Source: Actinomycetes bacterium
GTDB taxonomy: Bacteria; Actinomycetota; Acidimicrobiia; Acidimicrobiales; RAAP-2
DNA length: 64,000 bases
NCBI GenBank assembly: GCA_021845725.1
Contig: JAJZVL010000001.1
Span: 1-64,000 of the forward strand
Direction: 5' to 3'
The notes below the pieces were generated by a model. The model had not been told where the DNA came from. It worked only from the letters and a program-made list of their open reading frames with translations, and did not search any database. The translations under genes were made by a program, and so were the position numbers. Below are positions 3,201-34,822 of this stretch, one piece after another. Each line of letters begins with the position of its first letter. Position 1 is the stretch's first letter.

Positions 3201-6200
3201 CGGTGGGGTTCACCGCCAACGGTTCCTCGACCACGACCAGCATCGCCCGGGCCGGTGTGGACGGGGCGGATAAGACAACAAAGAGCAGTCCCAACACACA
3301 GGGCAATGCCCAGCTCTCACAAGCCAAAAGCGACGCCTCGAACGACAGTGCCAGCGGCCCGAGCACTACCGCAACCCCCTCTGCCTCCACGGGCTCGGGG
3401 GGGGTGAGCGTGGCCGCCGCCGCCGCGTTCAACATCGTGACAAGCACGAGCGACGCCTCGCTTCCCTCGGGTTCGACGATCACGTCGACCGGTGCGGTCA
3501 CCTTGGCTTCGAGCAACAGCACCCACGCATCGGCGAACGGGGACGGCGAGGCGGCTACGGAGGGCGGGTCCGCGGCCGTCGGTGTGGGCGTGGGTGTCAA
3601 CCTGGCCAAGGTCCACAACACGGCCGATCTCACACCGGGCTCGTCCGTGGTCGCCGACGGACTGTCGCTCAGGGCCGAGACGAGGACAGTCTCGGGCAAC
3701 TCGACAGACTCCTTCGACGCGGAGTCGACGTCGGGGGCAGGCGGGGGCAGCGTCGCCAACGTGTCGGGATCGGTCGCCATCAACATCTTCGCCGTCACAA
3801 CGAGCGCCCGACTGCTGAGCAAGAGCACAGGTTCCACAGCGTCGAGCGCGACGGCCGCGACCGGCACAGTGTCGCTCACCGCCGGTTCATCGGTGGCCGC
3901 CACCGCGCACGCGGATCAGGCGCGCAACACCTTCAACCCGGCAACTGACGTGACCGGGACAACCACGACGACACTGCACCCGTACAAGAACGCCATCTAC
4001 CTCTCGCAGGCGCTCATCAAGGGCACAGGATCCCCGCTGAAGAGCGGGACACCGATCGCATACCACACCGGCGGCGGGAAGCCGATCGGCGGTCTTACGG
4101 ACAGCAACCTGAAGACAACGCCCAAGTACTGCGCCATCGTCCTGAGCGCGACTGCCATTCAGATCGCCAAGTGCACAGCCAAGACAACACCGATCTCGCT
4201 CGAGCCGACACGGGCGACGGGCACCGACCAGATGATCGAGATCCGTACAACACCGGCCCCGAAACTCGGTCTCGGTGCCTCGTTCGCCATGAACCTCGAC
4301 AATCAGACAACCCTGGCGGGCCTGCAGAACGACACCACGCTCACCGGCGGGAGGAACGTCACAGTCATTGCCACCGACACCAACACCGCAACCACCGAAG
4401 CAGACGGTGGCGCCGGTGCCGGCGGCGAGGTCACACTCGCCCCGAGCGTCGCGCTGGTCATCACCAACGTGACCACCGACGCCCTCCTCGGAACGGGGAC
4501 CGGGCTCGACGTCAGCACCAACGGCGGGTCTGTCACGGTGAGGGCGACACAGGCGGCGGCGACGACATCGACCGCCAGGGGCGACGTCGAGGGCGAGAAG
4601 GTGGGAGTCGCCATCTCCCTCCCGATCGCCGTCGTGACCGACCACGTCCGTGCTTCCACGGCGCGGAACATCGACGCGTCGGGCTCCGTCCTCTTCGACG
4701 CCTCGGGGTCGTCGTTCAATGCCGGGACGGCCTACGCCAGTGCCACAGGCGGACCGTCGACAAAGGGCACAGTCAACAGCCAGGTCACAGCCCAGCGGAC
4801 CGCCGGCAACACGGCCGATCAGAAGAACACGGGGTACACGCAGAACGCGTCCAAGACGCCCACCGCAGGGGACAGCAGCACCGGCGGCGCGTCGTTGTCG
4901 GCGGCGGGCGGCGTCGTCGTCCTGATCGTGACAACCACATCGCGCGCCTCGCTCACAGACGTCACCGTGACCTCGGCCACCGGCAGTGTGTCCCTGGAGA
5001 GCTCTGCCAACACCCACTCCGTGGGGACAGGCAGGGGCACATCGGCCACCAAGGCGAAGGTGGGGATCGGTGCCGGCGTCGTCGTGAACGACGTGTCGGT
5101 CTCGAATGAGGCGCTGACCGGCGCCTCCACCATCACGGCTGACGGTCTGACCGTGGAAGCCACCGGCACGACGGTCACCGTGACAAAGACGAAGACGAAG
5201 AAGACGAAGACAACGACCGAGACGGTGAGCTCGACCGCAGTGTCGGGCGCGAGCAACGCGACAAAGGTCGTGGTCGCCGGCGCACTGGCCATCAACATCG
5301 TGAGCGAACGCACGATCGCAGAGGTGACATCCGGGTCGACGGTCGACGCCGGGACGGGGAACGTCACAGTCAAGGCCGTGCAGAAGGAGAGCGACACCGC
5401 CACGGCCACCTCGAAGGCGTCAGGCGGAAAGACAGCCGTCGGCGTCGGGGCCTCCGTCGCCGTCCAGGTGCTCACCCCGACGGTGACCACCGCCGAGATC
5501 GGCACAACAGCAGCCGTGATCGGCGGGTCGAGCGTGGAAGTCACTGCCACATCCACCCGGACGGTGGCCACCACCGTCCACGCCGGCACCTCTGGTGGCA
5601 AGGTCGCGGTGAGCCCGGCGGTCGCCCTGGTCGTCGACGTCGGCGATGCGACCACCGCCAGGATCGGGAGGTCGGCGACGCCGCTCCACCCGACCGGTAC
5701 GGTCACGGTGAAGGCGAGTCACAGCGTCGACCTCACGAAGAGCACCGCGACAGCGACAGCCGCCACTACAAAGGTGGGCGTCGGGGCCGACGTCGTCCTT
5801 CCCCTGGTCGTCGGCTGGACCACCACCGCACAGCTCGACCGCAGCACCACCGCGACCGCAGTCACGGTCTCGGCCTCCTCGACAGCGAAGAGCGCCGCCA
5901 CAGCAAAGGCAAGCGCCAAGGGGAACAAGAGCAGCGGAAAGAGCGCAGACACAACCTCGCACACCACCGTGGCGACAGACCCGAACGCAGGCAAGAAGGG
6001 CGCGACAGGGGTCGGGGCCACAGGCCCGAACGCGAGCACAGCCGCGTCCAAGGGAAGCTCGAGCTCTGGTGGGCAGACCGGCGCGTCCTCGAGCGGGGTC
6101 GGCGTGGCCGCCGCCATCGCCATCGTCTGGCTGACAACCTCGACGACAGCCAGTATCGGCACGAACGTCACCGTCGACGCCACCAACAACCCGGTCACGG

Positions 6201-27200: not shown

Positions 27201-30200
27201 CAGGGCTGCTCCCGGACCCGCCGGCCAAGGGCGGCGCGCAGGGCCCGACGTCGAGGAGCGTCGCGGGCACCGCCGGCCTCACCACAGGCGCAGGCAGCGG
27301 GCAGAGCTCGCTCGTCGGCGGCACCAGCGCGATCCTCGGCCCGGTCGCGGGCCGCACCTCGACCCGCGGGTCGACGTTCACCTCGACCGACGTCGCTGCC
27401 GGCTCCCCGACACACCCGATCACCGGGACGCCGAGCGGGACACTCACAGGCACAGCGAAGCCGCAGACCGCCGCCAACGCCGCCTGCCTGAACGGCCGGA
27501 CCGCGACAGGCACGCTCGACGCGGTCAACTGCAACCTGTACCCGAGCAAGAACGCCGTATGGCTGAACGGCGGGCCGCTCGCCGGCGCCCTCGGCCCGGG
27601 CACCTACTTCTTCGCCGTGCTCGTCCCGAGCGGCCAGACGACACCCAACGACACGCTCGGCGACGTGAAGAACCTCTCGTTCCAGACAGGGTCGGGGTCG
27701 GGCGACGCGTGGACGAACCGCGAGTTCACGATCAGCTCGAGCGGCACCGTGACCTACACCGGCACCCACGCCTTCGACGCGGCGAACGGACGCATCCAGG
27801 CCATGCCCTACGCCGACACCACCAACCCCGGCGGCGTCTACATCCTGGCCATCTGCAGGGTGCCGGCGACAGCGACAGCGACCGCCACAGGCGCTCCCGG
27901 GGTCGACCCCGCGAGCTGCAAGTACGACGCCTTCAAGGTGCGGGTGTCCGTCCCGTCCACACCGACGACACCGCCGCCGACAACACACCGGACAACAACA
28001 CCGGGCACACATCCTCACCACACAACAGCGACAACACCGCACACGCCGTCCCCTGGGACAGGTGGCCGCGGCACAACGCCGACAAAGACACGGCCGCGGA
28101 CAACGTCATCGACCGCGATCGCCAACCTCGAGGCCCACGACGCCAACGTGATCGTGGCCAACAACGGCGACGTCGTGACGGCGGTCGGCGCGGGTGGAAC
28201 GGTGGGCAAGGCCCCGGCCGGCGGCACGCTCTCGCCGCTCGGGTTCCTCACCTTCAACTACGACCTCTACGGGAACCCGGGCGCCACCGAGTGGATCGTC
28301 CCGCGGGCGGTCACCCGCCTCGACTACACGCTGGGTGGCCCCGACCTCGCCCACCAGGCCGGCCCCCTCGTCACCGGGAGCGCGGCGACCAACGGCGTGG
28401 GCGACATCGGCGGCCACCCCGAGACCGTCACAGGAGTCAGGCTCCAGAAGGGCTCGGAGATCCACGCGACATCGGGGGCCGCCTTCATCTACGGCGGACC
28501 GGCCGACACAGTGATCTACGGCGGCGGCCAGAACGACACGATCCTGCTCGGCTACGGCGACAACTGGGTCTCGGGAGGCCGGGGCGACCAGTGCATCGTG
28601 GCGAGCGGGCAGTGCCTCGCGAGCAGGAACTCGACGACCTACGGCGAGCCCCTCTACGGCATCTCGAAGCTCGCCGCCGTCACACAGCTCATCGCCACCC
28701 CGGGGAACGTCCAGACGGCGATGATCAACGTGACAGGGTCGCTCAAGTACACCGCCTACATGTGGCCCTACAGCGTGAACCCGACAACGAGCTTCACGAA
28801 CCCGACATGGGCGGACGGCTGCAAGACCAACACCGCCTGCCCGCCGTACTGGGACCGCTACGGCCACAACGTCATCTACGGCGGGTGGGGGTCCGACTCG
28901 ATCCACGGCGGTCCGGGCGACTCGGCGATCTCGGGCGCAGAGGCTCCGACGTACGCCTTCACCGACAACTTCTCGAACACCTGCACGTTCAGCGCGACAG
29001 CCCCGACAGGGGAGCGCTGCACACCGACAGACGTCCACCAGCTGAACAAGGCGGCGATCCGGAGCGACTGGTACCACCCGTACAACCCGGGCAACGTGCT
29101 CGGCTGGACGACGCCGACGACACACCACGGGCCGAACCCGCCTGACGGCAAGTTCAAGATGTTCACAGGCACAGACCCGCGCCGCAAGGTCATGCTCACG
29201 TCGACAGGCGCCCTCTGCAAGTGGGGGACAGGGTACGCAGCACCGACACGGACAAAGGCCGGCTGCCTGCCGTGGATCATGGACTACACGCCCGCCGACC
29301 TCGCGGTCGAGCCGGTCAACACGACCTGGGCGAACGGCACATACGGGCCGACGCCTTGGAGCGGCACAGACGTCATCTTCGGCGACCTCGGCAATGACTG
29401 GATCATGGGCGGCCAGGGCCGCACGCAGGTCTTCGGCGGCTTCGGCAACGACCTCATCGACCTCCGGGCGACACTCACAGTCGACGGCGGTCTGAACGAC
29501 GGCCCCGTGCCGAACCCGATCACCGGCACCTACGGGACGCCGGGGTGGGAGGGTCTCGCCTACGGCGGCGCCGGCCAGGACATCTTCTTCGCCGGGACCG
29601 CAGGCGATCGGCTCATCGACTGGGTCGGCAACCACAACACCTACTACGTGCCGTTCTCGAACTTCGGGATGCCGACGGTGAGCCGGACGCTCCAGCCGTT
29701 CCTGCCTCAGTTCCTCTACGCCCTCTCCAAGAGCGACGGCGCCGACCCGCTCCTCGGTCTGCGATACGGCGGCGCGCCCACACGCAACGGCGAGCCGTTC
29801 GGCGAGCTGGGCCTCGTGCTCCAGCACGACGCCGCCTGGCACACGATGATGGGCCCGCCCTTCGACAAGATGCCAGAGAACCTCGGCGGCGTGGGCACCG
29901 ACGTGCCCAAGACGGCCAACACGCTCCCGATCGGCTCGTCGGGCGTCGACACCGTCTCGGCAACCGCATCGGCAGGCGTGCTCGCCTTCGTGACAGGCAT
30001 GGGCGCCGGCCTGCCCTCGGGCACCGACGCCACAGGGGCGACAGCGGTCCCCTTCGTCGTGCGCGGCCCGGTGGGCGCGACCGTCACGTACAGCTTCCGC
30101 CTGCACCACACGCAGGTCACGGGGACCGGGGTCGTCGGGAAGGGCGGCCTCTTCGGCGCGACGGTGGACCTCGCGACATTCAAGACAGGCGTCGTCACAG

Positions 30201-31921
30201 TCACAGTCGTCATCTCGAGCGCCGGCTCGACGACCACGCTCCACGGGTTCACGACGAAGAGCACCGTGCCGCCCCCGTCGCCGACACTCTCGGCGACGCC
30301 CAGGTACGCCAACAACCAGAACCAGACAACATTCGTCGTCACCGTGAAGGGACAGGCCGGGAGCATCGCCGACATCGTGATCAGCGACAGCGCGACACCG
30401 ACCCCGGCGGTGCTGAACGGCATGGACGTGATCGGCCCGAGCGGCGTGCTGACCATGCCGTTCCAGGTCTCCCTGCTCGCCGAGGGCCCGCTCACCGTCT
30501 CGGTGACCCTCACCAACGGTTCGGGCAACAGCTCGCCCACGACCTGGAAGGTGCTGAAGGACACCGCGCCGCCGCCGCTCACGGTCTCGGCGCCGCCCTA
30601 CGTCAACCTGGCGAACGAGTCGAACTACCAGGTCCTCATCAGCGGCGCCAAGTTCGCGACAGTCTCGATCTCGGCGTCCGACGGGACGACCACGCTCACC
30701 GACTCGGGCTGGCTCAACGGGAGCATGACCTGGCTCACCAGCAAGTGGAACCTCTCCACGCTCCATGACGGGCCCATCACCCTCACGGTCGAAGAGACCG
30801 ACCCCTACGGCAACGTCGTCGTGAGGACGTACCAGGTCACCAAGACAACCAGGCGACCCGGGTCCCCGACCGTGGCGCTCACACCGGCGAGCGACAGTGG
30901 CCCGTCGAGCACCGACTACATCACCAACGTGGCCACGCCGAGCTTCCTCGTCACCCCCGGGGCGACAGCGGTCTCCACGACGGTCTACGTGAACGGCGTC
31001 CCCTACACCGGCCAGGCGCTCGGCACCGGCACCTACACCGTGACGGCGGTCAGCGACAACGTGGCCGGGAACCCCTCCTACGTGGCAGACGCGCCGAAGA
31101 CCCTCGTGATCGACACCAACCCGCCGACGGGGAGCTTCAGCGTGAAGGGGACGACGCTCGGCGGCGTCACCTACACGGACGACCCGGCGCTCTCCCTGTC
31201 GCTCGCCTTCTCCGGGGCTCCGGCGGGCCTCTACCAGATGGCCTTCTCGACCGACGGCGGCGCCACCTTCGGCACGGCGCTCGCCTACGCGACGAGCGGC
31301 GTCGTCAGCCTGCCGGAAGCCACAGGGACCTACACCGTCGCAGTCTCCGTCACCGACCTGGCAGGGAACGCGGCCGTCTTCAGCGCGGTCGTCGACCTGG
31401 TGAGGAGCGCCGCCACGATCTCCTACACGCTCACCGCGCCGACCAACGCCGGCTCCTACGACGTCGGCCAGCAGATCACGCTCACCGCCGCCGCCACCGC
31501 CGCCGACCCGGTCGTGTCGGTGAGCGCCACCTTGGATGGGAAGGCCTGGAGCCTCGGCGCCGCGCTCGACACCGCGACGCTGTCGGCCGGCGACCACACC
31601 CTGGACATCTCCGCCACCGACGCCGCCGGCAACGTCACCACCCAGACGCTGACCCTGGCCGTGCACGCCACCGTGGCCGGCCTGCTCGCCGGGGTCGACT
31701 ACGGCGCCGCCCAGCGGTACATCACGTCGTCGACAGCGCTCACGGTGCTCGAGACAGCCCTCGCCAAGGCCCAGCGCGCGGTCAGCGCCCACGAGACAGC
31801 CGCAGCGATCACCGACCTGAAGCAGTTCGTGGGCGACCTGACCAAGTACAAGAAGGTCATTGCCCCCTCCTACGCCAGCCTGCTCGCCGGCTGGGCCGAC
31901 GACCTGATCGCGCGGCTGTAG
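2..31921 (+). CDS. Giant multidomain surface/adhesin-like protein (5' end outside window)
   Basis: The frame is open from base 2 to the TAG at 31919-31921, so at least 10,639 residues are encoded and the true start lies upstream; GTG 284 is only an internal codon. Order seen: Thr/Pro linker (2-265), a short NGGPGND motif near 435, beta-strand repeats (about 840-13700) of the type GVGVAVNV...AxIGxGAxV, inserted carbohydrate-binding-like modules, a recurring VxYxxGGGxxIxGLT module, RTX-type GGxGND repeats (about 20270-29620), Calx-beta-like segments (21170-23540), a Thr/Pro/His linker (27950-28105), Ig-like domains and a FIMAH-like helical end. Such proteins are usually exported adhesins or matrix proteins; that role is inferred. 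No LPXTG motif or C-terminal membrane anchor is visible. ACA is unusually common among Thr codons. The next intact gene, a cell-wall-bound peptidase, lies about 490 bp downstream. Confidence 0.9.
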   Translation, partial: TTTPTTTTTSGTPTTTTPTTTTSGTPTTATPTTTTSGTPTTTTPTTTTSGTPTTTTPTTTTSGTPTTTTPTTTTSGTPTTTTTSGTPTPASNWTVTGTTATYQVPAGEVLVGDLGYNATTKTIELVAPSGAADGISASGLTAVVVNGGPGNDQLGIAGGTFPVPVTVNGEGGTNTLFGPAGSSTWTLTGADSGTVAGVAFSGFQDLIGAAGYAATFVLQPGGSASYVDGGGSGILEVNGSQSFTDEATGPHSGTVVVGGVPVGYAGMAPITVSGAPTVTITGTGTDNLTVSQTGSTVTVSTTTVSIESVTFSTTGLAKATINGNGNKESITFTTALALSGATLDVKVAKITVLNVAISTTGTVDLTATATDNGSSTLTVFTPAKPKASITLTGATLSAGTITLAASATSTPKASGHLNVVVVTATATVSVANSTIESTGNVTVSSSSHVTATATSAGSTYQGAWSASTTYAKTVTVTKTTAIYTSQAATNTGHTPKATTAGTYWKPASGSKDAAASAVAVTSDASSTLSGTTTFNVGGKFSLTSTNAVTMNTIGNASGSGDGAGVAVGVLVESTKSEITATSSGSTAASLTVEATATNNLKTTAKASVGGATSDTQSPDATTNPHSTNQNAPTVPSGNANTSTGAISVGGALAFSYLGDTTVAAIAPTTGSFGLTTTKAAGIGIHATTSNSVATTGNGSTNKAASTGVGVGIAVNVAKDTTRAYLAGTQALTTSAVDVSTGGSTQPSADTFKASATSGLGDPKTVAFKGSFALNVVTVDHTASISPSASIALGRSVGPATVTLSSTHTTTSDTKAVPKEKVFDPKTAVGPDHHTITLPYKVTTLKTGTTLVYSNGGGTDIGGLATGGTYYAFTVKTGTTPHPSFKLAAGATKPKPTTAKPTTTALYLTTTTTTGDEQSLLPAEKVSGVGVGLGVAVNVVNDTGQATIGTAATLTGAKNLTLEATTVDTMGTEAASGSEGGVAITPVVAVSISNVQTHADLGTAPSASSPLVLAGTLSATGTQSATVTTSAKGNTTGATAAIGASVAVTVATHTVTAQTHRSVTAHGAVGFTANGSSTTTSIARAGVDGADKTTKSSPNTQGNAQLSQAKSDASNDSASGPSTTATPSASTGSGGVSVAAAAAFNIVTSTSDASLPSGSTITSTGAVTLASSNSTHASANGDGEAATEGGSAAVGVGVGVNLAKVHNTADLTPGSSVVADGLSLRAETRTVSGNSTDSFDAESTSGAGGGSVANVSGSVAINIFAVTTSARLLSKSTGSTASSATAATGTVSLTAGSSVAATAHADQARNTFNPATDVTGTTTTTLHPYKNAIYLSQALIKGTGSPLKSGTPIAYHTGGGKPIGGLTDSNLKTTPKYCAIVLSATAIQIAKCTAKTTPISLEPTRATGTDQMIEIRTTPAPKLGLGASFAMNLDNQTTLAGLQNDTTLTGGRNVTVIATDTNTATTEADGGAGAGGEVTLAPSVALVITNVTTDALLGTGTGLDVSTNGGSVTVRATQAAATTSTARGDVEGEKVGVAISLPIAVVTDHVRASTARNIDASGSVLFDASGSSFNAGTAYASATGGPSTKGTVNSQVTAQRTAGNTADQKNTGYTQNASKTPTAGDSSTGGASLSAAGGVVVLIVTTTSRASLTDVTVTSATGSVSLESSANTHSVGTGRGTSATKAKVGIGAGVVVNDVSVSNEALTGASTITADGLTVEATGTTVTVTKTKTKKTKTTTETVSSTAVSGASNATKVVVAGALAINIVSERTIAEVTSGSTVDAGTGNVTVKAVQKESDTATATSKASGGKTAVGVGASVAVQVLTPTVTTAEIGTTAAVIGGSSVEVTATSTRTVATTVHAGTSGGKVAVSPAVALVVDVGDATTARIGRSATPLHPTGTVTVKASHSVDLTKSTATATAATTKVGVGADVVLPLVVGWTTTAQLDRSTTATAVTVSASSTAKSAATAKASAKGNKSSGKSADTTSHTTVATDPNAGKKGATGVGATGPNASTAASKGSSSSGGQTGASSSGVGVAAAIAIVWLTTSTTASIGTNVTVDATNNPVTVTAQDFTAATAKGTGTADLTKLTTTTTGQSSQTAIGAAVGFNYLNVRNDASIGSKAHVTGVGVKVSASTPKTSTHTTAPKQIDVIAWGLAAAGGKSDPGVAGSVGLNVVIYHTSATIGTGAQVTSGAGVTVLALAPFGLQDIAASGALAKTGSAVGAAIAVNVLEPLSTAASIDSTTATRTSVNATTGITVSATSRLVPLKITFGFLRLTSVPSFIQTVAKTVETAFPPVSSIAIAGGAGTTSKVALGGSFIVDVLTLSTTASIGTGAEIDQRTHGTSTQSLTVAAKDDTGLWNLAGGIGLTDGTAGVGFAVIVDVVTKNVAATMGSDVTATLGGDVAVEASSTEQAFEIAASAGVGTSKAGVAGSIIADVYDQGSGTPGTDASIGGSATAATGSSVHAKGNLLVSAVDNTYNPNGNPVSSTPDKFGLYSGAVAFGGKAGVGASAAVLVRTSRVHAKIGTHDDVSGLATGKSTSTAGVKVNAAQTGNVFLLAVGGAGGTSAGIAGSATIDVLTDSTIASIGTTTTVNDPNTGAGTTQSVSVTATDHTTLLDVAGELAVGSSAGVGAGVDAQVVTKDTEASIGGNDQVYATRNVLVIATSSMDLKSIAVGGTFGGDAGITLNAGVIVINVTTKATIGADAFVTAGGSVVVSATDGLQLDVIAGSLAGSSTAAVGAAAAVPIVTKHVEALVCTGATVNAAGGGAGYTVVTGTTTSTPTIRFDPGGKATAAAGYPATTVGKTIVRGDAVDLPFTPGTVYKDGEKVIYTNGGGNNITGLTGGKGSTPGQTYYIIFAPDVCAHCVYLQTLANAPHGPPFSKTTVIAISAPAPGITTESQRFVPATEAGVARDTSPRFRPSDYTASTNDFVLPYKVRTFSTTASHPTPVVYSDGGGTPITGLTDGGVYYAVKVGTASTTRPEIQLYERPATTRTTTSPHYVPLTGLSATKAITAKSNSQSIVKQGTQPSANAQTENPATSTPTTTAVHGVAVSATNSDNLATVGVSAAISGSAGVALSGSVAVLTVTTIAHIGDTAKIDCATSTCRTTTGTQSVTVNASDHFHQLGIAATLAVGGDAGVGAGAAVRVVKLTTEATVGSGTTIRAARTVTLSASTSDSVVSVAAGAAGGTVGVAGTADVTVLTDTTQATTATAVTIHAGGSVGVAAKDDTSLTTVDASLAAGYVGVGASVGVVIAKKTTTAAIGNHDVVSGYSGVRVDATTTEHVFGLAASVGGGFVGAAGGVGVHLLTTTTTASIGTTTTIDAPGTGSSTQSVVVTARDDLHSLTIAGGAAGGFVGVSGGVDIGVADTSVAAVVGNGTAVYAQKNVDVSATSLQHVATYALGLAGGVVGVTGSVSVWTVGTAPSSKFTTASGGPTKGTWSPTATYTKGDRVTYQGTTYADKSSTQIKGTPSNPSPKTDTGQWQTAQTALGYSAKKPPPTWSSTKSYSKTTTVTYTGKVYVAKKTVGASSTPPPSDPTVWSVGSSGGTGNSATDAGAVANGGGAYQGILGGSSGTTDGTWSATTSYQEGDIVSYDAASYEAKTSITGTSSNAAPATDPSRWEQISSSAVRGNQRLSAADATASSGITGLPGTDAINRALSATTVPQGTSAYVGGTIVVGGHVHVTANDKLTLTGVAGTAAGGLGALGASILVLNVQAPVDAGVGPGASIQAGATSTGDVAVSAHTTETVFGLAFAGEAGIVAIGAQVVVINDSSSQHAHVDSGAKVTQAGGGLTVTASARRKVTALAVGGALAGVAAGASVGVVNVSGDTCATVGSEGNGTGHNPCTTNGSVTLGTASAGRSVSTLEVTASDTLPVTAKVYSVEAGVGAGIGGAVAVVTLTGRTAASSDASGQVGSGGETVKATGRHHVTTTTLSISTGAGLALGLTVAKATDGRATKAEVTGGWISTSGPLDVSATASNTATSSAPGGSAGGVSIVAMLPFAIVSGTTTAALDGSVTGASSVDVAARADNVAKATAIVVSLSIGGVSGAFADAQVTTGASIDAAIGSAATVSAQTTITVSAATRTTGDKATADAKGGSGGLVLSGSVMVATATIGGAVRAQMDGHITSGTALTLSATGVHAARATTLVISGSFGFSGAGARAGAVITSDAVVEAGGTGGSIHVSGTVTDTATGTSTATAVSDVGSAGLLSIGVAEPIATISGAVEAQLASTIKEAAQVTVTATERNTATATAVPVSVGLFSGSGAKATATISATATSYASVSGRVTVTGTGAVDVTAHDHNLAKAHTDTVSAGGISVSAVDATATDDGGASASFGGTLVSAGQLSLVAGGRATAGTTNVATATITLLSIGLGAGGGTHSKATVGGTTEAFIASNTTIDGSNSTAGTAVSLTANEKATARSHSTGGAGGAVGVAVIESSGTASPTVEAYLGSTVTFGTATARAGSLSLSATGAVGTNVVASSGTGGIVSAGGTTATSTVAPHLDAYLGTTDHLLLDGTLTVTARLTYAEGHSKATSYGGGVVQVGAANAHATSSPTVHAYVTSGTTVVAGGNVIVDAELLSQPTTKLGCTNHGTTTVNCFYAGTPTVDQAKGTITFRESGLITGDTVVYTAPAGGAIPGLTSGDTYTVVVLTANTVQFGDVFPVATVTAGGIPSGNPGGAGIDPSRAMIRFATPDHFATGDVVELTGTHVGGLTLTQPYYVRVIDPYTIEVYSTSALAETSGVTVVPFTPSSTTTSCTKVTSCTGTLRITGNKIEASTVPSSLANTTRVTYEAPPPLTFTRTLVDVKPNPTTRVTVTVTVSGTKVKRKAPAPTSTAHDIIVAPFTHGTTPSTVTKHPDGVFRGEKVVYETTSSSPVGGLTPGAAYYVIPDGTYAVQLASSYTDAFTHNKHKCGTTTKATCWTSPVVITITAPSGYTGVQELVPAPIAGLENGLTYTIATRTKTAFELKLGTAVVTLCSGDPHCPKDAGGDNAVETNVYHAAAGDRFFAAGVALTAPSTSSGVTFTPRSAVAGSQIHAANSFTAGEKVTYKAPTPLVFTNSSVDATTRSIAVPTTGLFTGEKVVYQSLQPTTATKKKLVLTTTPGTSLKGLTNDATYYLIVQTGAVALSASYTGALTSAAIPISAPANTNATVTQQLLPSPLSGLFAGATYEVATPTPTSFSLETTTGAAITPCSGDSHCPADTGGDVHGGDQLVPAQKPVDTVRLAFYKTATEKSTTTLPDVPNFLYASCSITRPSTCVSLRSVNPPSGNGVTSAVANGGGGGFVAVTVPSAKVTNTPTVQAYAAGASITATGDVTVTSTSDTHDSATTDNGSGGFISVAKVTSTITIGHNVSYAYVGHRLTSSLISGDTGTTSATYITGEGSTITAGGAVTIRSSTADATTISATSTSGGLGGASIADAQTTVKDYAASAIGAEASVTGQTVAIDTSSGGTHHGSATSTFIAFAGGATASEHNDVTSYDSAFVEGNTTTTSPTRVTGHDGVDVRAYHATLSSTDSSTGTCYCLFGGGGSPHGSTLQAHNTSSGHKGAVVTTAPRFLQGVNESTTTPETPLYHTLSSTRTRKEQLALYVEANRGPGVTSGVHTTNKIFWSSDVNIYSGPSPYLLINKTGKVTKAVNVTINCTTPTTSTTCAKYPKHGTSFNGTVADIVNNDVGDVYMTAGGGTIKGGKTVDTHHWGTFTMRQNFTSVTLINTSTTPMTVDNIFVFTPTSQPKVTLDAGTVTFAKSATSHGFTIDQTITPTLVTIQGNSAADITLNGTINNPVGQTEIVDTGGSILATTVRGETSTHTHTSLIITSRLTITAETGSIGSASQTLVGSVTSGSASLTATGSDFTPQDVGLPISGTGVPAGAVILKVTSTTEVTMSMKATGTYPSASIVISGDGNYVNVDMVQYSTTPALKLTLTPSAGTSINLDLLTWIREAIIPSPTKTAPYVVEMSPFTAGNSINVRLRPTEKGTGTRKLPGVTVRNSTSSTLNGHNPYYDYYEPNSGTRGTFPIGVFGSTPKKVPSTYTFSLLDAGKAVTPAGRAVTPGSIDVFAATPQPTPTPTPTGTPAPNGNRIDIAGTVEVWHGGNVNTDTNGFVTLTEAAGVNAGDLRAGRIESTDTTVTLTAPGSIFDAPPTASSTSYPAPTPGDSTPATNPDVIGVKVTLIAEHGSIGQNSNFLEIDTSVDRFGTLTARAPGVIRITQTDPITQTFPLSLVTATQRTSNLHVGLVTTCYGSSERTCSTISLATDQGSITDGHDTGNGGTTPNVQGDTIDLQALGGSIGGKVRTATTTKAAATRTTVTGTNDLKVWSAAGSACHTTATLLYQGAHYQNITTTARAVTANCDLAAQADTSVYVTQTQGPMNVLQALARHGNVRLTTTATGTLTNRIGSTRILWNSIFLLHSGSTLVVENSPETVPQGIVRAISGNATLRSANDIVTDPSSLILATTAGGTPGTGSTPTKDPSTPTDKTGNITIYGDVHPSGVETTPNPTPGYGTVIVLRGTITPGKGSAGTFGLTRVFGNTEADTIIFDRTHLGGETRAYGSATPTPAGQYAPAGDGSPAGKCPTTGQSSCNDTFIVNRLQSMVAQEASGLHDTLTLDGQAGSNTYDIFTSGSRFTTRNYVIDVLGTHAPTTGTDTLNVYGYDSYTTTSQRFNDTGVESGSGTSAVQYPTNDIFLLRGITTIPGESTARPGLYTETNTHAPQPAGFVALLHATLTKAEGITPGTGQPGIAASFGVERINYDSAMTGGLHVYGIGGNDYFAVDNNAANTYIDGGPGNDRFQVGQLYGLRRNTAATPTVTGSTPTHPTFNGSGTLAAENVFDVATVATTRGWLSRGNSYPLVIQGGTGNDTFTVYSNQAPVHLEGDTGNNLFIVRGFALAETTKTYGNIILPTGCSTISAPYCLPIPLTTNGYSTAASTDIKTGAGNNQVEYNMNAPLSVDGGTGFNKLVILGTEFADHIVVTATGVFGAGMSVSYTNIQVLEIDALQGNDTIDVLSTPPGVAVRVIGTTGSNQINVASDVIGNVYSQDINGTSSTIDNQLLTTNELYKDLTIPGVSVNVAQATQGQVIVTQHPGGTVVQETTTTKPQAARVPIGTIDTYTVRLASQPTSDVYVDVTAEPGLLQNRTATPSGDSILVATGTTPPARGSTETSSGFYIHTITDGAAANLPQRSLVLIFTPANWEIPQKVWVGAINSAKVTVTRVYEVSNSVLSTDPTYAHAEVTMVAVTKLGIAPAIDVTNLGNSNTPRTFTTPANFTDGVANGTTVFTSARAHFTLSDLGQPIVETDGTGHIPAGTVIVKVTSATTVTLSAAATAATAGATIHFELPSRLDGYASYRDGSATSGSTTFTSKTAGFNATDLGRPIVETDGKGAIPAGTTISAVTGPATVTLSTAAAATATTVAFALPARNTSNVVLEGSTTTQIVSHFGVTLASKPTSDVTVALTPGDARVTLTSTDSRFSVKTVPYRTGPTGVTGPTGGVYDVTFTPTDWNMPVVVEVTAFPQSAPLDPHDTFITAAVVTAATTGYGATTTHPAVNTTAHPFVVRVLDDNEAGGVVQSPTTMTVIKCGTTTCLSPGPGSSYSMRLTEAPTRTTTPTSAHKTTVTVALVTDGQTVVTPEATPTKRVAYRSVGGPSLKRLFQGDIAITGPAVSLATGSLLANFETSGFAAGQLIQITTVEHTTATSLGQFTITAVTPSTITLTSSAAATATTFTGVSISRVVNDGVFTGTVAFDVAKGTLTTADGSSWLTDGFVVGTLFELTGKSPLYKVESVTSTTASRPTDVLVVTPATIDPTTGAEMAGTLPFTGSGTATVSLQSWAASISFTSTNWYTPVTIPVVADPFFTVPVTQRDLLQFPKAPHLLSNIQGPLSVQGGPTNDVYGALTDAVMLPGETNAAPFGIGTQPTESQQVNVLNIFDDGSEQDSSGTLSSTSLTGFGMGKGLTFEKDPAYTSGGPTFGEPPVFPSGISFGSIAVAPTGRVSTNASLSTVQVVNLMLGSGNTHLTVTGSVVDGPYSQTTGKACTKANGEPCTFVQGGLTVVQGGGARQIVASSTTPTFLITTSLENASTVVTRTISETGYVWATHEFTKGQELLLTGVPVGTVTTVSGTTLTYRGVVTAGMTGHDVAATVAVFAPSISSTAAASAPFTYTTADSIRRTDLRSWTSLGFAVGQEITVDGVLAGTITGFGGITGNVLVYAPCATALCSVPTTGTTVDVFDPTATQVAYGGNRITVVGGGGPGPGLTPPMATLTVIEALKAPATSTNGTSAVSTLTRSTGSWITTGFLYSMVLTITGTAGWRVTAVSATTLTVSGAALTSKTQPVEISATGFAPSPLVVYGSTTQSGIWYSGNPYTMSGQVFGSTPFPNQVGGGSTTFIFPVADQFAHAGNNVINASKDFATVPETQVPSVGLVLYGGPGNDTILGSQAPDFIAGGSGNNTIYGERGDNILLGSDGVNVTVITRTVSFPTANRSVYPNADPLIAGRNLIYGNTPTGETTTDAYGNYNDIIFGAMGVVTQTTLTATIGKLRTAEKVSATLSATAATVNGIRVATLTCLTSCFTPTEVGLTVATAATVATAARHLSSGTVIVKLATTGKVAILSRNAATKGITVPTLPATVGPAYGYCRPSGTSSNSAYCAPSGTTAWGTPRLETLQTTGDVYGIASTEPYNHGNDTIYGSGGDSVIIGGDGTDNIQGGPGNNLIIGGSVALTRKNDTRLFTYKTLRFQTLSGTLLYTVTKTTGTGKALTDGVPQTDPTQTGTCFGATTHVNCHDWWGDFLSAGKRPTPTAKPGIELSVPLGAAGLPATYPMTLRDSTVKGADYIAGGPGSSMIFGESNTNIIQAHGSIDITDEGAGSAGNGSVTTGTVFGGAATCTFRRAPLGNRVGACRSSTNALLLNQSVDNYTALEYTSTGTFTVAVAGSFCTATTPKVCTAELAITRTDTQSWRDFGFAKGDTIDVNGLPVGVVVSLSGTHTQTMTVTAEAAPRGCAPTGSAALPCKLTTATVVATDGTAYVEGGRGNNTIFADEGQNTIIGGSSDLFGLTLPSERASGSNLIFGGSGANAGRSTPGLLPDPPAKGGAQGPTSRSVAGTAGLTTGAGSGQSSLVGGTSAILGPVAGRTSTRGSTFTSTDVAAGSPTHPITGTPSGTLTGTAKPQTAANAACLNGRTATGTLDAVNCNLYPSKNAVWLNGGPLAGALGPGTYFFAVLVPSGQTTPNDTLGDVKNLSFQTGSGSGDAWTNREFTISSSGTVTYTGTHAFDAANGRIQAMPYADTTNPGGVYILAICRVPATATATATGAPGVDPASCKYDAFKVRVSVPSTPTTPPPTTHRTTTPGTHPHHTTATTPHTPSPGTGGRGTTPTKTRPRTTSSTAIANLEAHDANVIVANNGDVVTAVGAGGTVGKAPAGGTLSPLGFLTFNYDLYGNPGATEWIVPRAVTRLDYTLGGPDLAHQAGPLVTGSAATNGVGDIGGHPETVTGVRLQKGSEIHATSGAAFIYGGPADTVIYGGGQNDTILLGYGDNWVSGGRGDQCIVASGQCLASRNSTTYGEPLYGISKLAAVTQLIATPGNVQTAMINVTGSLKYTAYMWPYSVNPTTSFTNPTWADGCKTNTACPPYWDRYGHNVIYGGWGSDSIHGGPGDSAISGAEAPTYAFTDNFSNTCTFSATAPTGERCTPTDVHQLNKAAIRSDWYHPYNPGNVLGWTTPTTHHGPNPPDGKFKMFTGTDPRRKVMLTSTGALCKWGTGYAAPTRTKAGCLPWIMDYTPADLAVEPVNTTWANGTYGPTPWSGTDVIFGDLGNDWIMGGQGRTQVFGGFGNDLIDLRATLTVDGGLNDGPVPNPITGTYGTPGWEGLAYGGAGQDIFFAGTAGDRLIDWVGNHNTYYVPFSNFGMPTVSRTLQPFLPQFLYALSKSDGADPLLGLRYGGAPTRNGEPFGELGLVLQHDAAWHTMMGPPFDKMPENLGGVGTDVPKTANTLPIGSSGVDTVSATASAGVLAFVTGMGAGLPSGTDATGATAVPFVVRGPVGATVTYSFRLHHTQVTGTGVVGKGGLFGATVDLATFKTGVVTVTVVISSAGSTTTLHGFTTKSTVPPPSPTLSATPRYANNQNQTTFVVTVKGQAGSIADIVISDSATPTPAVLNGMDVIGPSGVLTMPFQVSLLAEGPLTVSVTLTNGSGNSSPTTWKVLKDTAPPPLTVSAPPYVNLANESNYQVLISGAKFATVSISASDGTTTLTDSGWLNGSMTWLTSKWNLSTLHDGPITLTVEETDPYGNVVVRTYQVTKTTRRPGSPTVALTPASDSGPSSTDYITNVATPSFLVTPGATAVSTTVYVNGVPYTGQALGTGTYTVTAVSDNVAGNPSYVADAPKTLVIDTNPPTGSFSVKGTTLGGVTYTDDPALSLSLAFSGAPAGLYQMAFSTDGGATFGTALAYATSGVVSLPEATGTYTVAVSVTDLAGNAAVFSAVVDLVRSAATISYTLTAPTNAGSYDVGQQITLTAAATAADPVVSVSATLDGKAWSLGAALDTATLSAGDHTLDISATDAAGNVTTQTLTLAVHATVAGLLAGVDYGAAQRYITSSTALTVLETALAKAQRAVSAHETAAAITDLKQFVGDLTKYKKVIAPSYASLLAGWADDLIARL
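1376..1530 (+). other. CBM5/12-like module, first copy, inside the giant gene
   Basis: The encoded segment starts GAWSASTTYAKTVTV and ends GTYWKPAS, with the W-x-Y-x-V...Y...W spacing of small chitin-binding (ChtBD3, CBM5/12) modules. The GDxVxYxGxxY core is degenerate compared with the three copies near 10.3-10.9 kb. Confidence 0.5.
10312..10872 (+). other. Three CBM5/12-like modules inside the giant gene
   Basis: Three modules of about 47 residues lie at about 10312-10452, 10489-10629 and 10732-10872. Cores are TWSPTATYTKGDRVTYQG, TWSSTKSYSKTTTVTYTG and TWSATTSYQEGDIVSYD, each closing with a Trp (GQW, TVW, SRW). This is the usual layout of family 5/12 carbohydrate-binding modules, which bind chitin or related glycans. 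They sit between blocks of beta-strand repeats and could let the protein hold polysaccharide; binding itself is inferred. Confidence 0.65.
21776..22235 (+). repeat. Duplicated DLGxPIVxTDG module in the giant gene
   Basis: Two adjacent modules of about 72 residues (about 21776-21990 and 22015-22235) share GTTVFTS or GSTTFTS, then DLGxPIVETDGxGxIPAGT and a TVTLS strand. More distant relatives lie near 17500-17700 and 25610-25830. The adjacent pair is clearly a tandem duplication at the protein level. Confidence 0.7.
27950..28105 (+). other. Thr/Pro/His-rich linker inside the giant gene
   Basis: A low-complexity stretch of Thr, Pro and His (for example PTTPPPTTHRTTTPG) separates the RTX-bearing part from a further domain beginning IANLEAHDANVIVANNGD. 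It resembles the linker at the left edge but is His-rich and not a clean tandem repeat. Confidence 0.7.
30040..31918 (+). other. C-terminal Ig-like domains and FIMAH-like helical end
   Basis: From about 30040 the protein has several Ig-like beta domains with phrases such as LAEGPLTVSVTLTNGSGN, LHDGPITLTVEETDPYGN and VSVTDLAGNAAVF, typical of bacterial Ig-like repeats. The last 80 or so residues (from about 31670) are alpha-helical and Ala/Leu-rich, with spaced Tyr and Lys, resembling the FIMAH domain found at the end of large secreted proteins. No sorting motif or hydrophobic tail follows, so attachment is not explained by this end. Confidence 0.6.
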
Positions 31922-31949
31922 GCACGCCGCCCCGGCTTCGCTGGCTGGT

Positions 31950-32123
31950 GCGGCTTGGCTTCCTCGCCACCTGGGGGCGGGCCTCATGGTGATGCTGGCC
32001 GACACCGATGCCGGGTCCTTCAGCATCGCGGCGCAGTCGGGCGCCCGGTGGGCAGACCGCATCGCGCTGCCCGAGATCGTCCTCGTCTCCATCCTCTACG
32101 TGGCCCGAGAGATGACGGTGCGA
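31950..32123 (+). pseudogene. Decayed fragment of an NRAMP-family divalent-metal transporter
   Basis: In the frame of ATG 31986 the sequence reads LGAGLMVMLADTDAGSF, then IAAQSGARW and, after a hydrophobic stretch, YVAREMTVR. This matches the first conserved membrane segments of NRAMP/MntH-type transporters (GPGLMVMLADTDAGS...AAQSGA). The preceding VRLGFLA lies in a different frame (31948-31968), so a frameshift separates the two parts, and nothing recognisable continues after about 32123. The roughly 60 codons are far short of the 400 or so of the family. I read it as a relic of a deleted gene. A short novel ORF is possible but unlikely. Confidence 0.6.
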
Positions 32124-32407
32124 AAGCGCCCTGTTCCTTTCGACGATCGGCGCCCTGCTCTCAGGCGCTGTGCCTGATCGTGATCGCATTGGGGCTGTGC
32201 ATGGTCGCCGCCAGTTTCGGCCTGACGTGACCGCCGCGTTGGGGTCGGGTCGGACGGTCGGGGTCCCAGCTGGGTGAGGGCGAGACCCGACCGGGTGGAG
32301 GCGAGCTTCGAACCTGGAGCAGACTGAGCCTGGAGCAGATCGGCTGCCCAGGGCCGGGGAGGGCGAGGCCCCTTGTCATCTCGCTCCCAGCACGAGGAGA
32401 CAGGGTC

Positions 32408-34822
32408 ATGCGACGTCGGGGCATTCGCAGATGGAGCGTGCTCGCCGCGTTCGCCGTCCTTCTCCTGTCGGGCGCGGGCGTCGTGCAGGCCAACGTGTCG
32501 GCCGCGTCCGCGAGCTCGCTGCAGCCGGGCCTCACCCGAGCGCTGCCATCCTCTCCGGCTCGGGGACCCGGGGCACGGAGGATGGGCGCGGACTACGCGC
32601 TGCAGCATGTAGGGCGCGTCCTGCCGCTGCGTTCGGTCGAGCACCCCTTGCCCGGTCGCGGACCCGATCTCCCGGCATGGTCGGGCGCGACGCCGACCGA
32701 GACGCCGACCGCAGGCGGGACGAAGCACGCCGGTGCGATCGCCCACGGGGCCCCGACGGCGTCGTTGAACTGGGCAGGACAGATCGACACAGCTTCAGGG
32801 CACGCCGGCAGAGGAACGGCGGCTGGGACCGTGTTCAGCGCGGTCTCGGGGTCCTGGCACGTGCCGTCGGTGACGGCGACGGCCGGGGCTGAGAACGTCT
32901 CGACATGGGTCGGCATCGGCGGCGTGGGGACGACAAGGCTGATCCAGACGGGCACGACAGTGACAGTGAGCGGTGGCACGGTGCGCTACTTCGCCTGGGT
33001 CGAGCTCCTCCCCACAGCGCCGGCCTACGTCGACGCCGTGGTCCACCCCGGCGACGCGATGGAGGCGCTCATCGAGGAGCGTGCGGCCGGGGTGTGGACG
33101 ATCGAGATCGAGGACGTGACGCAGGGATGGCGCGCCGAGACAACGACAGTCCGCTACACAGCAGGACCGCAGACAACGGCCGAGTGGATCACGGAGCGCC
33201 CGCTCACAGTCACACGCGGGACGTTCACCACACTGGCGGACTTCGGCTCGACGCGGTTCACGCACTTGCTGGTCACAGGGACGAACCTGACAGCGGCGTC
33301 TCTCTCGAGCGTCTACATGACCAACACAGCGACAGTGGTCATTGCTTATCCGAGCGCACCCACATCGTCGACAACAGGCAATTTCACCGACTACTACGGT
33401 ACGCCGCTGCCGACCGTGACGTCCGTTACCCCGTCGCAGGGAAGCTCGAGCGGTGGGACAAGCGTGACGATCAAGGGCACATACCTCGTGCCGACACTGC
33501 TCGAGTCGGTGAACTTCGGGACATACCCGGCGACGGTGACCGGCGACTCCGGCGGCGTGATCACGGTCACGACGCCAGCCGAGCCGCCCGGCGTCGTCCA
33601 CGTGACGGTCTCGACCACCGACGGGACGAGCGCGGTGACGGACGCGTCGACGTTCGTCGTCGTCGGGCCCGGGACGACCCGCATCTTCGGTGCGACAGCC
33701 GACGCGACGGCGGCCGCCGAGCTCGAGCACCAGTTCCCAGCGACCACAGGCCAGTGCCCGGGCACCACAGGCACACGGCCCGTGGTCCTCGCGACCGCCG
33801 CGGCGTACCCCGACGCGCTCGCGAGCGCGTACCTTGCACGAGATCTCGGGACGGGAACGCTGCTCACCGGCCCTGCTTCCCTATCTCCTGCGGCGCTCGG
33901 CGCGATCGCCGAGGAGGGCATCACGAGGGTGGTCGTGGTGGGCGGCCCACTCGCCGTCACGACAGCGGTGGTGGAACGGCTGACGTCCACTCCGGCCGAC
34001 ACCTGCGGCGGTGTCGCCGCGCTGCCGGGCCCTGTGGATCTCGAGGTGACCCGCGTCGCGGGAGCCACCGCATACGACACCGCAGCGAAGATCGCCGAGA
34101 GCGTGGCGGCGACGCAGGTGGGTGAAGCCTCGTTCCCAGGGGCCTACGCAGGGACGAACAGCTCCGGCGGGGAGGGCAGGTACAACGACACGGCCGGCAC
34201 CGCTTCCGTGGCGCCCTCGAGCGCGACAGCTCCGTCCACCGCGATCGTGGCCGCGGGGAAGGGCTTCCAGGACGCGCAAGCGGCGAGCGCCCTGTCCTAT
34301 GCGGAGCGCTTCCCGATCCTCCTCACCACACCAGTGGTGCTCTCCCCGGAGGTCACGTCGGCGATCGAGGCCCTTGGCATCCGCCAGGTGATCGTGGTCG
34401 GGGGCCCGCTGGCGGTCTCGAACGCCGTGGTGACCTCGCTCGAGGACCTCGGGGTCTCCGTGCTTCGAGTCGCCGGACAGACCTGCTCGGGCACGTCGGT
34501 CGAGCTCGCCGAATTCGAGACTGCGGGGGCAGGCGGCGGTCTCGGATGGACGGGCACTGGGGCGCTCACCGTCGCACGAGGCAATGGCTTCACCGACGCG
34601 CTGGCTGGGGCGGCGGTCGCCGCGGACGGCCCGGCGGCAACGGCGCCCGAGCCGCTCGTCCTGACGGTCGGCCCGACGAGCGTGGGGACAGCTCTGGCCG
34701 GCTTCCTCCACGCAGCGGGGACGACGGGCATCGGCGGTGCGCGGGTGACCCGTTTCACGATCCTGGGCGGCCCGCTCGCCATCACGCAGACAACGATCGC
34801 TGCCATGGGAGCCGATCTCTGA
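32408..34822 (+). CDS. Secreted eqolisin (G1) peptidase with IPT/TIG domain and three cell-wall-binding repeats
   Basis: ATG 32408 has GAGGAG upstream. Residues 1-34 are a signal peptide (MRRRGIRRW, then a hydrophobic run to SAASA). Residues about 118-295 match the peptidase G1 (A4/eqolisin) family: NWAG, WVGIGG, RLIQTG with the catalytic-type Gln at about 180, and TAEWITERP with the Glu at about 259; the family works at very low pH by a Gln/Glu pair. Residues about 335-420 are an IPT/TIG Ig-like domain. Residues about 423-804 hold three cell-wall-binding type 2 repeats, each with a VVVVGGPLAV-like signature, known to attach proteins to wall polymers. The likely result is an acid peptidase held on the envelope, perhaps trimming surface proteins such as the giant upstream protein; that target is a guess. 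Thr codon ACA is frequent here too. Confidence 0.8.
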   Translation: MRRRGIRRWSVLAAFAVLLLSGAGVVQANVSAASASSLQPGLTRALPSSPARGPGARRMGADYALQHVGRVLPLRSVEHPLPGRGPDLPAWSGATPTETPTAGGTKHAGAIAHGAPTASLNWAGQIDTASGHAGRGTAAGTVFSAVSGSWHVPSVTATAGAENVSTWVGIGGVGTTRLIQTGTTVTVSGGTVRYFAWVELLPTAPAYVDAVVHPGDAMEALIEERAAGVWTIEIEDVTQGWRAETTTVRYTAGPQTTAEWITERPLTVTRGTFTTLADFGSTRFTHLLVTGTNLTAASLSSVYMTNTATVVIAYPSAPTSSTTGNFTDYYGTPLPTVTSVTPSQGSSSGGTSVTIKGTYLVPTLLESVNFGTYPATVTGDSGGVITVTTPAEPPGVVHVTVSTTDGTSAVTDASTFVVVGPGTTRIFGATADATAAAELEHQFPATTGQCPGTTGTRPVVLATAAAYPDALASAYLARDLGTGTLLTGPASLSPAALGAIAEEGITRVVVVGGPLAVTTAVVERLTSTPADTCGGVAALPGPVDLEVTRVAGATAYDTAAKIAESVAATQVGEASFPGAYAGTNSSGGEGRYNDTAGTASVAPSSATAPSTAIVAAGKGFQDAQAASALSYAERFPILLTTPVVLSPEVTSAIEALGIRQVIVVGGPLAVSNAVVTSLEDLGVSVLRVAGQTCSGTSVELAEFETAGAGGGLGWTGTGALTVARGNGFTDALAGAAVAADGPAATAPEPLVLTVGPTSVGTALAGFLHAAGTTGIGGARVTRFTILGGPLAITQTTIAAMGADL

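Follow-up and report, generated by a model that had tools for sequence, protein, structure and literature searches.

The gene at positions 32408-34822 of the window, the whole 64,000-nucleotide stretch of DNA that was analysed, encodes a protein that probably works as an acid endopeptidase at the cell surface, tethered to the wall. This reading draws on the domain content, on a predicted structure and on analogy with characterised enzymes and anchors. The glutamic peptidases described so far are mainly acid enzymes secreted in free form. Within one actinobacterial genus a G1 peptidase is found joined to wall-binding repeats again and again, and once, in another genus, the order is reversed; this suggests acid proteolysis that is fixed to the surface. 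None of the modules is new, and there are characterised G1 enzymes from bacteria; it is the combination of the modules that is unusual.

Coding sequence and domain organization

The open reading frame is present as it had been described in an earlier note on this DNA, and lies on the + strand. The features of the gene are as follows.

32408-34822, + strand: whole coding sequence, ATG start, 804 amino acids plus stop (read from the sequence)
32408-32491, + strand: residues 1-28, probable signal peptide for Sec export (RRRGIRRW, then a hydrophobic core, and VQA followed by NV; by eye)
32492-32749, + strand: linker or possible prosegment, residues 29-114, of low confidence in the model
32654-32680, + strand: short recurring motif GRGPDLPAW, residues 83-91
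32750-33403, + strand: G1 (eqolisin, Peptidase_A4) domain, residues 115-332 (Pfam, alignment and model)
32945-32947, + strand: putative catalytic Gln180, codon CAG (alignment)
33194-33196, + strand: putative catalytic Glu263, codon GAG (alignment)
33410-33655, + strand: IPT/TIG domain (Pfam and model)
33680-33970, + strand: CWB2 repeat 1 (Pfam)
34052-34429, + strand: CWB2 repeat 2 (Pfam)
34466-34681, + strand: CWB2 repeat 3; the match covers profile positions 1-50 of 73 and the sequence runs on to the C-terminus

On inspection by eye the N-terminus has n, h and c regions of the typical kind followed by the VQA site, and the protein would be exported through Sec. Pfam assigns Peptidase_A4 (PF01828) to residues 136-301 (E 1.3e-23; 83.9 bits, the cut-off being 22.3), TIG (PF01833) to residues 335-416 (E 1.1e-9) and CWB2 (PF04122) to three stretches (E 1.3e-21). 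All three scores are well over the curated cut-offs, so that the domain assignment is not due to chance. The G1 class, the TIG domain and the three CWB2 repeats that the earlier note had read from the sequence are all borne out by these matches, and its further suggestion, that the envelope holds an acid-type protease in this way, is probable from the domain content.

The segment between the signal peptide and the peptidase domain contains a recurring motif. Of 21 proteins of the genus, 18 have the pattern (G/R/S)(P/S)D(L/P/A/M/G), often with a W after it, 21-60 residues N-terminal of the peptidase domain; shuffled sequences gave a mean count of 1.6 and a maximum of 6, a comparison that is indicative only, the pattern having been picked post hoc and the sequences being related. 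The motif, GRGPDLPAW in the window protein, may mark a prosegment. Residues 29 to about 114 would probably be cleaved off at low pH, as in other G1 zymogens.

The window gene was compared with two orthologues (L075 and L076) by the Nei-Gojobori method. The dN/dS values are 0.17-0.22 for the G1 domain, 0.24-0.31 for CWB2, 0.21-0.43 for TIG and 0.37-0.47 for residues 1-114. The G1 domain is under purifying selection and is the most constrained part of the protein.

Catalytic residues and predicted structure

In a phmmer alignment to scytalidoglutamic peptidase (SGP, 1s2b), Q180 falls on SGP Q53 and E263 on SGP E136, the two residues that form the catalytic dyad of that enzyme (PMC6154417). A profile alignment to aspergilloglutamic peptidase (AGP) places E263 on AGP E219, the final Glu of AEWIVE. 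Aspergilloglutamic (3e-23) and scytalidoglutamic peptidase (2e-18) are the sole PDB molecules matched by the G1-domain profile at E<0.01. The Gln that the earlier note had placed at about 180 therefore stands as an active-site residue, while its Glu at about 259 has to be moved: the catalytic Glu would be E263, the last residue of TAEWITE. E259 was rejected as the catalytic residue, since it aligns with the non-catalytic SGP E132 and homologues have Asp, Gln or Ala in this position.

The conservation of these positions was assessed in 39 homologues gathered by the Pfam model alone, with the TAEWITE motif not used as a pattern. Position 180 is Q in 37 of them, with one A and one gap, and position 263 is E in 38, the single A belonging to a degenerate copy. 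Position 259 is more variable (E 32, D 4, Q 2, A 1). The only row that has lost both catalytic residues is this degenerate paralogue, L054. The tryptophans W167 and W197 are likewise retained. SGP D43 is replaced by G171 in the window protein, and Gly is found here in 21 of the 39 homologues. The D43A mutation reduces SGP activity to about 20%, and G43 has been recorded and judged an acceptable natural variant (PMC6154417). A highly divergent, separate G1 branch, near-identical in two species of the genus (L055 8187-9431 and L056 7982-9226), keeps the Gln and the catalytic Glu; its position 259 is Gln, and Val stands in place of W197.

The AlphaFold2 model, built on a 53-row alignment, has pLDDT mostly of 84-98 over residues 140-420. 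The predicted G1 domain superposes on SGP (2ifw) with Z 23.8 and 2.3 Å over 194 residues, which corresponds to the double seven-stranded beta-sandwich fold. The predicted TIG domain resembles plexin IPT domains (Z 14.7). In the model Q180 is located within the strand 179-188 and E263 at the end of the strand 257-263, so the active-site geometry expected in the earlier note does not appear to be lost at the level of the fold. The G1 domain would cut peptide bonds by means of Q180 and E263, most likely around pH 2-5, which is the activity range of the bacterial G1 enzyme pepG1 (PMC3009609).

The CWB2 region is poor in the full-length model, and a model of this region only, built from 8 sequences, has pLDDT 52 and pTM 0.36. 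A Foldseek search with the whole model lists C. difficile Cwp6 at E 7.5e-6, yet with an rmsd of 15.7 Å over 412 columns. A profile of the CWB2 region matches C. difficile Cwp8, Cwp6 and SlpA HMW and no others at E<0.01 (E 2.5e-11 to 5e-7). Since this part of the structure is poorly modelled, we infer an intertwined CWB2 trimer from the sequence.

G1 peptidases and CWB2 fusions in the genus and beyond

A second gene of the G1-TIG-CWB2x3 type lies on contig C112 of the genome of the window. G1 genes were found in all 13 genomes of the genus that were examined, and the fusion of G1 with CWB2 in ten of these (G000, G001 with a degenerate head, G004 and G006-G012). The head of the G010 protein (C12b) is below the Pfam reporting threshold and was found by a six-frame search (E 9.5e-23); its dyad is intact. 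The CWB2 part, with three full repeats, has 56-61% identity across the paralogues. The reversed order, CWB2x3 followed by He_PIG and G1, occurs in another genus of the family (G018:C3, L063 7082-10195). On the G1-domain tree the CWB2 label needs at least 3 changes, and well-supported branches force two of these, which points to more than one round of recombination between anchor and head. In the literature searched, no description was found of a G1 peptidase joined to a Cwp-type anchor or of the recurrence of this fusion, and no paper linking a glutamic peptidase with Acidimicrobi*; such absence is weak evidence.

Further G1 proteins of the genus carry TIG arrays, fn3 or regions that have no Pfam name. 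The C-terminal 200-300 residues of L043, L045, L047, L049, L050 and L060 are partly or wholly of the last kind, and repeats like YWLVGADGGVYAFGDAPFLG, seen in L045, close some of these G1 proteins. Proteins from Bacillota, Microbacterium and Alicyclobacillus usually stop at most about ten residues past the G1 domain, and in the wider order the G1 reading frames are mostly about 300 residues long. The G1-CWB2 paralogue L054 (2869-5079, G001:C33) has lost the catalytic Gln and Glu and a core Trp but keeps the fold and the anchor. Judged from these substitutions, it is probably a non-enzymatic surface head.

Six open reading frames with CWB2 matches were found in the genome of the window, two of them being the eqolisins. 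The other four comprise one SpoIID, one PQQ-type beta-propeller and two with no Pfam head. These four are L155, L156, L157 and L158, on contigs C3, C125, C9 and C57 of this genome.

The window belongs to an actinobacterium that is uncultured, and the named relatives come from MAGs labelled Actinomycetes, Acidimicrobiaceae or Acidimicrobiales. Elsewhere the search found the family in acidophile-rich lineages, namely Alicyclobacillus, Sulfobacillus and Thermoplasmata. The MAGs presumably derive from acid surroundings as well. The earlier note had supposed that the enzyme might act when the surroundings turn acid. There is no sign of such a switch, and the acidophile-rich homes of the family make steady acid surroundings the better fit.

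Gene neighbourhood

Two features are found upstream of the eqolisin gene.

284-31921, same strand as the eqolisin gene: giant open reading frame, 10545 amino acids, no CWB2 match
31938-32230, + strand: pieces of a decayed gene for an Nramp-type transporter, lying between the giant and eqolisin genes

In L075 (YF2.bin99), from the one other species in which both genes were seen and with a 92% identical G1 domain, the 3' end of the giant gene is followed by an intact 449-residue Nramp gene (3219-4568) and then by the eqolisin gene, so that the giant gene and the eqolisin gene are linked within about 1.7 kb. The 3' part of the L075 giant gene has 96% identity to that of the window, and an internal segment (window 30041-30813) is absent from it. 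On the G004 contig the 3' end of an Nramp gene, present at the contig end, leads into the eqolisin orthologue. Downstream, the genes of an AI-2E-type transporter and FtsH are common to the window and G004; the L075 sequence diverges here. The direct adjacency of the giant and eqolisin genes in the window exists because the intervening Nramp gene has decayed or been lost.

Probes from the giant protein gave no match in the congeners: none for the C-terminal 599 residues in the 8 genomes scanned and none for an inner segment of 1000 residues in 12, with G004 included in both sets. The probed congeners include a genome with an 84%-identical eqolisin orthologue. The eqolisin is thus widespread in genomes that gave no match to the giant gene, and the direct contact of the two genes is a by-product of gene loss.

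A simple scan found no sigma-70-type promoter between 31700 and 35100. One weak terminator-like site, 32117-32130, is located inside the Nramp remnant. The repeats detected in the region are confined to matches within the CWB2-coding stretch and to short pairs due to chance.

The earlier note had proposed that the eqolisin might trim or shed the giant protein. In its favour, the eqolisin gene is the next intact gene on the same strand, and the two genes are linked in L075 too. However, G1 genes are present in 13 of 13 genomes of the genus, the congener probes found no giant counterpart, the G004 orthologue adjoins Nramp, and the giant protein itself has no CWB2. The proposal has become very improbable. 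Linkage to the giant gene was rejected as functional evidence on account of the congener probes and of the Nramp gene that separates the two in L075. The case shows how guesses from neighbouring genes can fail when adjacency has arisen from gene loss.

Possible function

In the preferred reading, a wall-tethered acid endopeptidase, the TIG domain would be a rigid spacer, and the enzyme would be fixed on a wall polymer by its three CWB2 repeats. Proteins would then be cut at or just outside the surface, by an enzyme that does not diffuse away. The anchoring role is proposed because C. difficile needs all three repeats: its Cwp proteins are anchored to PSII by three non-redundant CWB2 repeats (PMC5842191). 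It is also conceivable that the protein is secreted and not wall-fixed, its repeats serving self-association or the binding of substrate or mineral. The CWB2 model is weak and binding has been proven for the clostridial PSII only, which leaves some room for this; yet three full repeats are conserved (56-61%), the number required for binding in C. difficile (PMC5842191), and we consider it improbable. Harder still to believe is that the G1 fold has turned into a binding head without catalytic function. The paralogue L054 offers a precedent, and G171 stands in place of D43, but the window protein and its orthologues retain all catalytic and core positions under purifying selection.

For the wall-tethered endopeptidase the likeliest use is the digestion of environmental or dead-cell protein by a heterotrophic acidophile, a role to which we would give a little under an even chance. 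The next candidate is upkeep of the cell's own coat, in which the enzyme, as an acid counterpart of C. difficile Cwp84 and Cwp13, would mature or clear other CWB2-anchored proteins. The layout shared with Cwp84, in which a protease head is combined with a middle domain and three CWB2 repeats (PMC5842191), and the four further CWB2 proteins with other heads in the same genome are consistent with this. However, several G1 copies of genus-mates are carried on unrelated appendages (TIG arrays, fn3), so that broad digestion fits better, and the housekeeping role appears rather unlikely. It is a speculative extension that the genus runs a Cwp-like surface system adapted to acid life, in which wall-fixed G1 peptidases are dedicated to processing the cell's own coat proteins. 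Equally speculative is its corollary that heads and anchors are swapped freely among the paralogues and that a dyad peptidase fills the place held in clostridia by the papain-type Cwp84.

Comparison with known systems

The window protein shares with pepG1 of Alicyclobacillus sp. DSM 15716 (MEROPS G1) the Gln/Glu pair and a G1 domain that has no cysteines (PMC3009609). Relatives of the pepG1 type from Alicyclobacillus and other Bacillota end shortly after this domain, while the window protein goes on into TIG and three CWB2 repeats. With the fungal eqolisins, scytalidoglutamic and aspergilloglutamic peptidase, it shares the fold, as predicted by the model (Z 23.8 and 18.1), and the catalytic pair. 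Over the aligned region it is 22-26% identical to them, and it differs in lacking disulphides, in having G171 for D43, and in its surface appendage.

A similar layout is found in Cwp84 and Cwp13 of C. difficile, which likewise consist of a protease head, a middle domain and three CWB2 repeats (PMC5842191). In those proteins the head is a papain-type cysteine protease, the middle domain is lectin-like and the organism lives in the gut at neutral pH, whereas the window protein has a glutamic protease head and an IPT/TIG middle domain. The clostridial Cwp set combines one anchor with many heads (PMC5842191), and the arrangement here is similar, a Cwp-like surface set in an actinobacterium. It offers a clear test case for convergence on the Cwp84 layout by an unrelated catalytic class.
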